Source: Cellulomonas humilata (GTDB lineage: Bacteria > Actinomycetota > Actinomycetes > Actinomycetales > Cellulomonadaceae). From it: DNA of 64,000 nt. The position numbers were made by a program, and so were the translations under genes. Below are positions 52,441-53,920 of the stretch, piece by piece. The notes below the pieces were generated by a model that made no database searches, was not told the origin of the DNA, and was given only the letters and a program-made list of their open reading frames with translations. Location: positions 496,001 through 560,000 of the forward strand of contig NZ_JAUSVB010000003.1 in NCBI RefSeq assembly GCF_030814415.1, read 5' to 3'. Each line of letters starts with the position of its first letter. Within the stretch, counting starts at the first letter, position 1.

Positions 52441-52450
52441 ACATCTGTTC
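52439..52450. promoter_or_regulatory. LexA box 1 at the lexA -35
   Basis: AAACATCTGTTC matches GAAC-N4-GTTC at 7 of 8 defined bases. It overlaps the lexA -35 and explains autorepression. Confidence 0.75.
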
Positions 52451-52502: not shown

Positions 52503-52505
52503 GAC

Positions 52506-52517
52506 GAACAGACGTTC
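52506..52517. promoter_or_regulatory. LexA box 3 upstream of the LysM gene
   Basis: GAACAGACGTTC is a perfect GAAC-N4-GTTC box. It lies 64 bases before the LysM start at 52582, so that gene should be SOS-induced like its mycobacterial counterpart. Confidence 0.85.
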
Positions 52518-52581
52518 GAGGGCGATGAAGGTGATGGAGCGGTACCCCGGGAAGCCGGGCCGAGCAGGAACGAGGGACGTC

Positions 52582-52980
52582 ATGAGCGCGATGGTCATGG
52601 GGCCGGCAGTGTCCGAGCGGGCGTCGTTCCGCGTGAACCCGGCGTCGGGTTCCGCCACGCCAGCTGCACGTCCCTCGGCTCCCTCCGCCGCACACCTGCG
52701 GCTCACCGCGCGCGGTCGTGCCGTGCTGTGGATCCTCGCCGCCGTCGCTGTCGCGCTCGTGACCCTGATCGCGAGCCAGGCGTCCGCGGACGGTCCCGTC
52801 GCCGCCCAGGAGGTCGTCCGGCACGTCGTGCAGCCGGGGGAGACCCTGTGGCAGATCGCCGAGTCGGTGGCCGCGCCGTCGCAGGACGTCCGTGACGTGG
52901 TGGTCGACCTCGTCCGTCTGAACGAGCTCCCCGAGGCCGGCCTCATGGCCGGTCAGGTGATCGTCGTCCCCGCGAGCTGA
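52582..52980 (+). CDS. LysM-domain membrane protein, SOS-linked division-inhibitor type
   Basis: The product has 132 residues. A disordered N-terminus precedes one membrane helix (about 47-66) and an extracellular LysM domain (about 80-130, starting VVRHVVQPGETLWQIAESVA) that should bind peptidoglycan. The position divergent from lexA and before nrdR equals mycobacterial Rv2719c (ChiZ/DivS type), an SOS-induced division inhibitor. That role is inferred. The protein here has no extra hydrolase domain. I chose ATG 52582 for its GAGGGA. An ATG at 52525 is in frame but would start 7 bases from LexA box 3. Confidence 0.88.
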   Translation: MSAMVMGPAVSERASFRVNPASGSATPAARPSAPSAAHLRLTARGRAVLWILAAVAVALVTLIASQASADGPVAAQEVVRHVVQPGETLWQIAESVAAPSQDVRDVVVDLVRLNELPEAGLMAGQVIVVPAS

Positions 52981-53003: not shown

Positions 53004-53044
53004 TTGCCATCCGATCGCCCGGCGGCTAGGTTAGCCTTACCTCA
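53004..53044 (+). promoter_or_regulatory. promoter overlapped by an IdeR/DtxR-like box
   Basis: TTGCCA (53004-53009) and TAGGTT (53027-53032) are separated by exactly 17 bases. The stretch 53026-53044 (CTAGGTTAGCCTTACCTCA) matches the iron-box consensus TTAGGTTAGSCTAACCTAA at 16 of 19 positions and covers the -10 and start site. This suggests repression by iron-loaded IdeR/DtxR. No protein start codon follows at leaderless distance. Confidence 0.6.
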
Positions 53045-53197
53045 CAAGGCGAGCTGGGGGGCTTGCCGGAGGTGTGAGACTCAGGAGTGTGAGCTCGTGA
53101 GCTCACCGCAGTGCAGCGCGGCACCGAGGCGAGTCGGTCCGTGACCTGGGACGGGGGCGTCCCCGCGAGAGCGGCCATCTTCGGGTGGCCGCTCTCG
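53039..53197 (+). ncRNA. candidate structured RNA upstream of nrdR
   Basis: About 160 bases from the predicted start site contain five successive hairpins: 53041-53078 (CTCACA outer, GGCGAGC inner), 53089-53106 (GTGAGCTC/GAGCTCAC), 53123-53138 (ACCGA/TCGGT), 53148-53163 (GGGACG/CGTCCC) and the terminator-like 53166-53197. No convincing small protein is encoded. It is either a free iron-controlled small RNA or the structured leader of nrdR. I do not recognise a known family. The remaining bases to 53395 show no clear signal. Confidence 0.45.
53166..53197 (+). terminator. terminator-like hairpin before nrdR
   Basis: CGAGAGCGGCCA (53166-53177) pairs perfectly with TGGCCGCTCTCG (53186-53197) around an 8-base loop. 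No T run follows. It would end a short transcript from the promoter at 53004-53032 or attenuate nrdR. Confidence 0.6.
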
Positions 53198-53395
53198 TGC
53201 GTCGGGGCCCGCGACGGCGGTGCCGACGCCACCGCCGGACGCCGCGCTCGACCGGTCCGTAGCGCCCGGCCAGGCGCCTTGCGACACCGCAGCCCGTGGC
53301 CTAGCGTCACGGAGGCGTTCACGACGCGATCGCCGCCGACAGACGTCTGGCCAGATGTCGCGGCGTCGACTCGCCAGCACGAGAAGGGGGCCACC

Positions 53396-53920
53396 GTGCA
53401 CTGTCCGTTCTGCCGCCACCCGGACTCCCGGGTCGTCGACTCGCGGACCTCGGACGACGGGTCCACCATCCGGCGACGCCGGCAGTGCCCGCACTGCAAC
53501 CGCCGCTTCACCACCGTGGAGACCGCGAGCCTGTCGGTCGTCAAGCGCTCCGGCGCCACCGAGCCGTTCAGCCGGGAGAAGATCGCCGGCGGCGTGCGCA
53601 AGGCCTGCCAGGGTCGACCGGTGAGCGAGGACGACCTCGCGCTGCTCGCCCAGAAGGTCGAGGAGACGCTCCGCAGCGCAGGCTCGGCGGAGATCGACGC
53701 GTACGAGATCGGTCTCGCGATCCTCGGCCCGCTGCGCGAGCTGGACGAGGTCGCCTACCTGCGGTTCGCCAGCGTCTACCAGGCGTTCGACTCCCTCGAG
53801 GACTTCGAGGCGGCGATCACGGTGCTCCGCGCGGAGCGTGACTCCGAGCAGGATTCGACGCTGGGAACCGAGCCCGACGGCGAGAGCACGTCGACCGACG
53901 AGGACGTCCGCTCCACCTGA
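53396..53920 (+). CDS. nrdR: ribonucleotide reductase repressor NrdR
   Basis: NrdR represses ribonucleotide reductase genes according to bound ATP/dATP. The product has 174 residues from a GTG start. The zinc ribbon has CPFC (Cys3, Cys6) and CPHC (Cys31, Cys34), followed by the ATP-cone (about 46-136, [31 protein letters not shown]). The tail after 150 is acidic and variable. The start is preceded by GGGGG. The target nrd operon is not in the window. Position after lexA and the LysM gene matches mycobacteria. The upstream RNA and iron box could tie it to iron supply. Confidence 0.95.

Follow-up and report, generated by a model that had tools for sequence, protein, structure and literature searches.

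A small RNA of the Cellulomonas family, probably induced by iron shortage, with a loop that appears to match the translation starts of acn and sdhC

Judging from their genome sequences, soil bacteria belonging to the Cellulomonas family seem to carry a small RNA with a loop that matches the translation starts of acn and sdhC; expression of this RNA is probably induced when iron becomes scarce. It was found in a 64,000-nucleotide stretch of the Cellulomonas humilata genome (hereafter, the window). We favor, with a probability of roughly 0.8, the reading that the locus is an independent gene for an iron-repressed, trans-acting small RNA that prevents sdhC and acn from being translated when iron is low. 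Under the proposed mechanism, when iron is present, a repressor of the IdeR/DtxR type would sit on a box covering the -10 element and the start and keep the RNA off, whereas under iron scarcity the RNA would be made. The loop of its third hairpin, GGCGAG (extendable to GGCGAGUC), would then pair with (GA)CUCGCC, which lies immediately before the Shine-Dalgarno (SD) sequences of sdhC and acn, and the loop of hairpin 1, GCUGGGGGG, could pair in many species with a C-run located between the SD and the start codon. This pairing would block ribosome binding, such that succinate dehydrogenase and aconitase would not be synthesized and iron would be saved. The seed and the targets are read from sequence, and we infer transcription, the identity of the repressor, the sign of regulation, ribosome blocking and the involvement of any chaperone. 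The features of the locus are as follows:

52525..52980, + strand: LysM-domain gene (lysM), flanking; Pfam LysM
53004..53032, + strand: small-RNA promoter TTGCCA-N17-TAGGTT (-35 TTGCCA at 53004-53009, -10 TAGGTT at 53027-53032, 17-base gap), recognized from sequence, with -35/-10-like pairs also noted on visual inspection upstream of the RNA in relatives
53026..53044, + strand: IdeR/DtxR-type iron box CTAGGTTAGCCTTACCTCA, overlapping the -10 element and the predicted start; 16/19
53039..~53203, + strand: small RNA of ~165 nt with a predicted start, indicated by fold, covariation and covariance-model matches
53039..53073, + strand: hairpin 1, outer arm ACCUC/GAGGU
53053-53061: hairpin-1 loop region GCUGGGGGG, kept in 21/21 blastn-found members
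53074..53106, + strand: hairpin 2, variable in length and sequence
53118..53142, + strand: hairpin 3, with a covarying stem
53128-53133: hexaloop GGCGAG of hairpin 3, the proposed seed, present in 21/21 blastn-found members
53148..53163, + strand: hairpin 4, GGGACGGGGGCGUCCC
53164..53199, + strand: terminator hairpin, in which 9/13 pairs change on both sides
53279..53307, + strand: separate nrdR promoter TTGCGA-N17-TAGCGT
53396..53920, + strand: nrdR, flanking gene outside the RNA unit; Pfam Zn_ribbon_NrdR and ATP-cone

The original prediction of a promoter with exact 17-base spacing, overlapped by an iron box, is borne out by the sequence. The box CTAGGTTAGCCTTACCTCA agrees at 16 of 19 positions with the IdeR consensus TTAGGTTAGSCTAACCTAA and is the only site with three or fewer mismatches in the window; none was found in 100 shuffled sequences. 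When the whole genome of the species was scanned with the W-variant pattern TTAGGTTAGSCTWACCTAA, again allowing up to three mismatches, two sites were recovered, one being the RNA promoter and the other located directly upstream of the ATPase gene of an ABC transporter, after which comes a gene for a Peripla_BP_2 protein, with a VIT-family gene alongside. A search with a helix motif did not retrieve an IdeR gene from the ~800 kb of this genome that was read. Like the promoters of the iron-sparing class, that of the RNA carries a predicted operator for the principal iron repressor.

The predicted RNA (53039-53203) folds into five hairpins, the last of which is terminator-like and, in C. humilata itself, lacks a clear U run. 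The folding energy is -99.3 kcal/mol, compared with a shuffle mean of -77.6 (z = -5.03; 0/200 shuffles as good); the five-hairpin arrangement proposed earlier is thus upheld, with the end of the RNA moved from 53197 to near 53203. The covariation check suggested for the stems gave a positive result: in a 21-member MAFFT alignment that was not fitted to structure, 89.9% of the cells pair and both-side changes occur in 16/41 pairs (shuffle mean, 9.8; 1/500 shuffles as high) and in 52 cells (shuffle mean, 17.8; 0/500). As a control, sliding the pair partners in this alignment left no more than 6 pairs and 25 cells; further pair types among the 21 members were not unusually numerous (37 versus a shuffle mean of 34.8; 118/500). 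When 58 members were aligned to the covariance model, an alignment that leans to structure, both-side changes were found in 26/41 pairs. No small ORF was kept, the central part of the RNA being of variable length, and a coding gene was rejected, in agreement with the earlier reading that the region holds no believable ORF. The covariance models of Rfam 15 gave no matches in the window at the gathering score and none over the RNA at E values up to 1.

Two parts of the RNA are constant: the region GCUGGGGGG in hairpin 1 and the GGCGAG loop of hairpin 3 together with its A-U closing pair. Among loci found with the covariance model, which was itself built from members having the GGCGAG loop, this loop is present in 21/23, 20 of them by scan and one (L115) read separately, its loop lying outside the scanned span. 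The two loci with a different hairpin-3 loop, L116 and L117, belong to genus g31. Constancy of the loop is claimed only from the blastn-found and model-found sets because the 47 stretches collected from public genomes were chosen by a pattern containing the hairpin-3 loop.

A blastn search over 58 genomes, C. humilata included, gave matches in 23, with the full RNA at 21 loci, all of one genus, from which 36 genomes were searched. In G029 (L021), only the 3' end of the RNA is left, with nrdR and its promoter still in place, and the match in G055 amounts to 26 bases unconfirmed by the covariance model. The model found the RNA in 26/91 genomes of the family and 8/25 genera, the absence of a detected RNA in the others resting on strict search filters. 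In a sample of the order (297 genomes), 10 matched, with the match in G121 being the terminator-like hairpin only; in a sample of the class (296 genomes), 4 matched, and the 3 besides C. humilata itself lacked the conserved loops when inspected by eye. The matches outside the family (1 genome from the order sample and 3 from the class sample) consist of the terminator-like hairpin only, and so does a second match in G230 (L118), likewise without the conserved loops. The pattern scan of named genomes yielded its 47 stretches from Cellulomonas, Cellulosimicrobium, Oerskovia, Sanguibacter and Luteimicrobium, together with a Micrococcales genome, a record titled Sphaerisporangium and one Actinomadura match. 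The Actinomadura match (L086) was judged to be due to chance: the remainder of the RNA is absent and the covariance model misses the locus. The record titled Sphaerisporangium cinnabarinum ATCC 31213 (L053) has a Cellulosimicrobium-like arrangement, because of which it may be mislabelled or contaminated.

In all 23 model-found loci read, from 8 genera, the RNA lies between lysM and nrdR, beside the divergently oriented lexA. Of the 55 loci read, 53 have nrdR on the same strand, with its alignment starting 220-390 bases downstream; in one of the remaining two, nrdR is 2.2 kb off, and the other locus ends before nrdR is reached. Tandem repeats with a unit of ~27 bases occur downstream of the RNA in L080 / L022 (G001), where nrdR is 2.2 kb away. 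Between lexA and lysM, at 52505-52518, there is a look-alike of the LexA (SOS) box, CGAACAGACGTTCG, and a second similar site is found near 52448.

The position of the RNA directly upstream of nrdR, and in the same orientation at almost every locus read, is what would be expected of a structured 5' leader coupling NrdR to iron, a role that the original prediction had offered alongside a small RNA. This role is very improbable and was rejected: a terminator hairpin separates the RNA from nrdR, and nrdR has a promoter of its own, TTGCGA-N17-TAGCGT, located past that hairpin, and visual inspection of the lysM-nrdR intervals in relatives showed similar sites (TTGC...TAGCGT/TACGGT). Furthermore, the whole RNA unit, including the iron box, is inverted between lysM and nrdR in G010, such that the RNA runs on the strand opposite to nrdR with the box still at the RNA start, all but the 3' end of the RNA is lost in G029, and nrdR is distant in L080. 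Because of the separate nrdR promoter and the inversion in G010, the RNA looks like a gene in its own right. The nrdR reading frame extends, uninterrupted, upstream to 53111, but it is the start at 53396 that is aligned among relatives. The other half of the original prediction, an iron-repressed small RNA, is well supported at the sequence level by the box, covariation, conservation and the RNA's own promoter-like and terminator-like elements.

As for the targets of this predicted small RNA, sdhC was retrieved because iron-repressed RNAs elsewhere target it (PMC11257911). In C. humilata, the sdhC start site, GACTCGCCAGGGAGGCCCCCCAGTG, contains GACUCGCC, which is exactly complementary to GGCGAGUC (the hairpin-3 loop extended by two bases), and GCCCCCCAG, which is likewise exactly complementary to CUGGGGGGC in the hairpin-1 loop, and the order of the two complements fits a single antiparallel complex. 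The acn leader, looked at after sdhC, contains GACTCGCCAGCGAAGGAGCCCCCCGTG. In both genes of this genome, the hairpin-1 loop is complementary to the C-run between the SD and the start. The RNA shares with the iron-sparing class an antisense seed whose complement lies in the start regions of sdhC and acn.

The same complementarity extends to the relatives. Within positions -45 to -1 of sdhC, CUCGCC is present in 22/27 carriers of the RNA versus 3/32 genomes without detected RNA, in 2/32 of which it is next to the SD (Fisher test, 2e-8, a value that is not corrected for descent and overstates independence because carriers and non-carriers differ in descent). By genus, within the family, the counts made by eye and submitted to a Fisher test are 7/8 versus 1/17. 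The outgroup G047, with one weak Sdh_cyt match only, was left out of the sdhC count, and the sdhC start of G137 was corrected by hand beforehand. For acn, for which leaders were counted in carriers only, CUCGCC is found upstream of the SD in 20/20 carriers tested, with AAGGAG in 18/20. When all 4096 hexamers were ranked by their presence in both the sdhC and acn leaders (-60 to -1), CTCGCC came out on top, in 19/20 genomes, followed by two hexamers overlapping it (12 genomes each) and GCCCCC (8). The part of the pairing that involves hairpin 1 is weak, with the sdhC C-run mildly enriched in carriers (14/27 versus 6/32 others).

Background frequencies of the hexamer were determined in several sets. 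In crudely called genes from C. humilata (~800 kb plus the window), CUCGCC occurs in 20/500, acn among them, and by eye no other iron enzymes were seen among the listed N-termini of the genes with the hexamer. Within 0-4 nt of GGAGG, it occurs at 0/24 ribosome-binding sites in the window and 3/169 in the public loci. Among distinct leaders, it was found in 0/31 for lysM, 1/55 for lexA and 1/27 for ldh, two further control genes having too few usable leaders (0 and 2), and in nrdR leaders it appears at background level (3/55 distinct carrier leaders). The nrdR leader of C. humilata (53366-53395) happens to contain GACTCGCC upstream of the SD. In an unrestricted ranking by duplex energy, acn came 25th of the 500 called genes, and sdhC is not among the listed genes that the crude gene finder called for this ranking.

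An alternative in which sdhC and acn share CUCGCC as a transcription-factor or leader element that has nothing to do with the RNA is improbable. Near variants of CUCGCC (CTCGCT, CTCGCA) do occur at sdhC in some genera without detected RNA, as such an element would allow, but the hexamer is the exact complement of the loop and segregates with the RNA in the proportions given above. Moreover, congeners in which no RNA was detected have altered sequences next to the sdhC SD, namely, ATCCCGTC in G275, CTTCGCC in G351, AACCCGCC in G380 and GACTTGCC in G095, with CTCGCC kept in one such congener, G333. G380 retains GACTCGCC farther upstream of sdhC. In the leaders L208, L215 and L230, from genera without detected RNA, CTCGCA or CTCGCT is found near the sdhC SD, and these genera may harbor a diverged RNA, its loop matching, that escaped detection.

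The three G-rich, nearly invariant hairpin regions exceed the structure needed by a short seed and would be compatible with a protein-binding RNA, such as a sponge for an RNA-binding protein or for polymerase, in which case the sdhC and acn matches would be incidental. We consider such a function unlikely, given that the complement of one of the loops is the hexamer most common to the sdhC and acn leaders and that this complement differs where the loop differs. Thus, in genus g31, where the loop has changed, the sdhC site is ACACGCC in G345 and ATTCGCC in G358, whereas in G372 the loop GGCGAG and GACUCGCC at sdhC are both kept. Carriers without a perfect CUCGCC at sdhC are G021, G253, G345, G358 and G370; in G021 and G253, the loop is kept and the sdhC sites are imperfect, and G370 requires a G-U pair. 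In the sdhC leader of L154 (G230), two copies of GACTCGCC flank the C-run, possibly a doubled site for the RNA.

The trans-acting small RNA favored here would work like RyhB, FsrA, IsrR and MrsI. According to PMC11257911 and PMC8628891, iron-sparing RNAs have been described in several bacterial groups, among Actinobacteria as MrsI. A literature search, with most subscription papers lying outside its range, found no description of the present RNA. MrsI (ncRv11846) of Mycobacterium tuberculosis is ~100-106 nt long, is encoded between blaI and rv1847, has an IdeR box in its promoter, is made in iron starvation and, through a six-base seed, represses iron proteins, with hypF, bfrA and fprA as targets (PMC8628891). 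Like MrsI, the RNA described here is actinobacterial, with an IdeR-type box in the promoter and a six-base seed; unlike MrsI, it is ~165 nt long, is located in the lysM-nrdR rather than the blaI-rv1847 locus and has sdhC and acn as indicated targets; by its synteny, it is not MrsI. FsrA of Bacillus subtilis and IsrR of Staphylococcus aureus are iron-repressed and act on aconitase and succinate dehydrogenase, the genes for which are also among the targets of the iron-sparing RyhB of Escherichia coli (PMC11257911). However, FsrA and IsrR are Fur-controlled and belong to low-GC hosts, and RyhB is Fur-controlled and Hfq-dependent, whereas the Cellulomonas-family RNA has a box of the DtxR/IdeR type, the hexaloop GGCGAG as its proposed seed and no Rfam match. 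Ms1, a structured RNA that binds RNA polymerase, is reported in Actinobacteria, including Cellulomonas, and differs in synteny (HAD hydrolase, oxidoreductase and others), nrdR and lexA being absent from the main text of PMC9130861. If the favored reading is true, the same two tricarboxylic acid cycle enzymes as those addressed by RyhB and FsrA are reached via a DtxR-type box, which would suggest independent evolution of the circuit, and the explicit seed and targets make a compensatory-mutation test feasible.

Pairing alone does not give the sign of regulation, and the promoter of one clade lacks an iron box, both of which leave some room for an RNA that activates sdhC and acn, for instance, by opening their leaders, or that serves a response other than to iron. 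Either role seems improbable: the sdhC sites adjoin or span the SD, and known iron-repressed RNAs repress both enzymes (PMC11257911).

The promoters of the putative iron-repressed RNA are of more than one type. Among 67 distinct promoters, 25 have the canonical 19-bp box (15-18 of 19 under the scoring applied), another 30 carry a related dyad, TTAGG-N4-CCTAA/CTAAGTTAG (12-15 of 19), shifted into the spacer between -35 and -10, and 12 have no iron box. The shifted dyad may also be bound by the iron repressor, and in the genus g31 loci L116 and L117, a canonical box is found at the shifted place. The 12 promoters without an iron box (L017-L020, L022, L031, L043, L046, L054, L064, L073 and L079) form a clade that includes C. 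hominis, C. pakistanensis and C. denverensis and, instead, have ATTACG-N14-CGTAAT or close variants over the -35 element and, close to the start, a dyad resembling GGTGCCACC. A more ambitious reading, to which we give even odds, is that of a new actinobacterial family of iron-sparing RNAs that combines a two-loop clamp, with the hairpin-3 loop on CUCGCC upstream of the SD and the hairpin-1 loop on the C-run downstream, with a fixed RNA-target module and an input rewired three ways, through the IdeR box over the start, the TTAGG-N4-CCTAA dyad in the spacer or the unrelated ATTACG-N14-CGTAAT dyad in the promoters without an iron box. The clade with the swapped operator would then be a natural case of RNA-regulator rewiring. 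In seven genomes searched, sites elsewhere with one mismatch to the ATTACG-N14-CGTAAT dyad, and recurring sites with two, revealed no regulator, and the exact dyad occurs once each in G009, G015, G027 and G253, always at the RNA.
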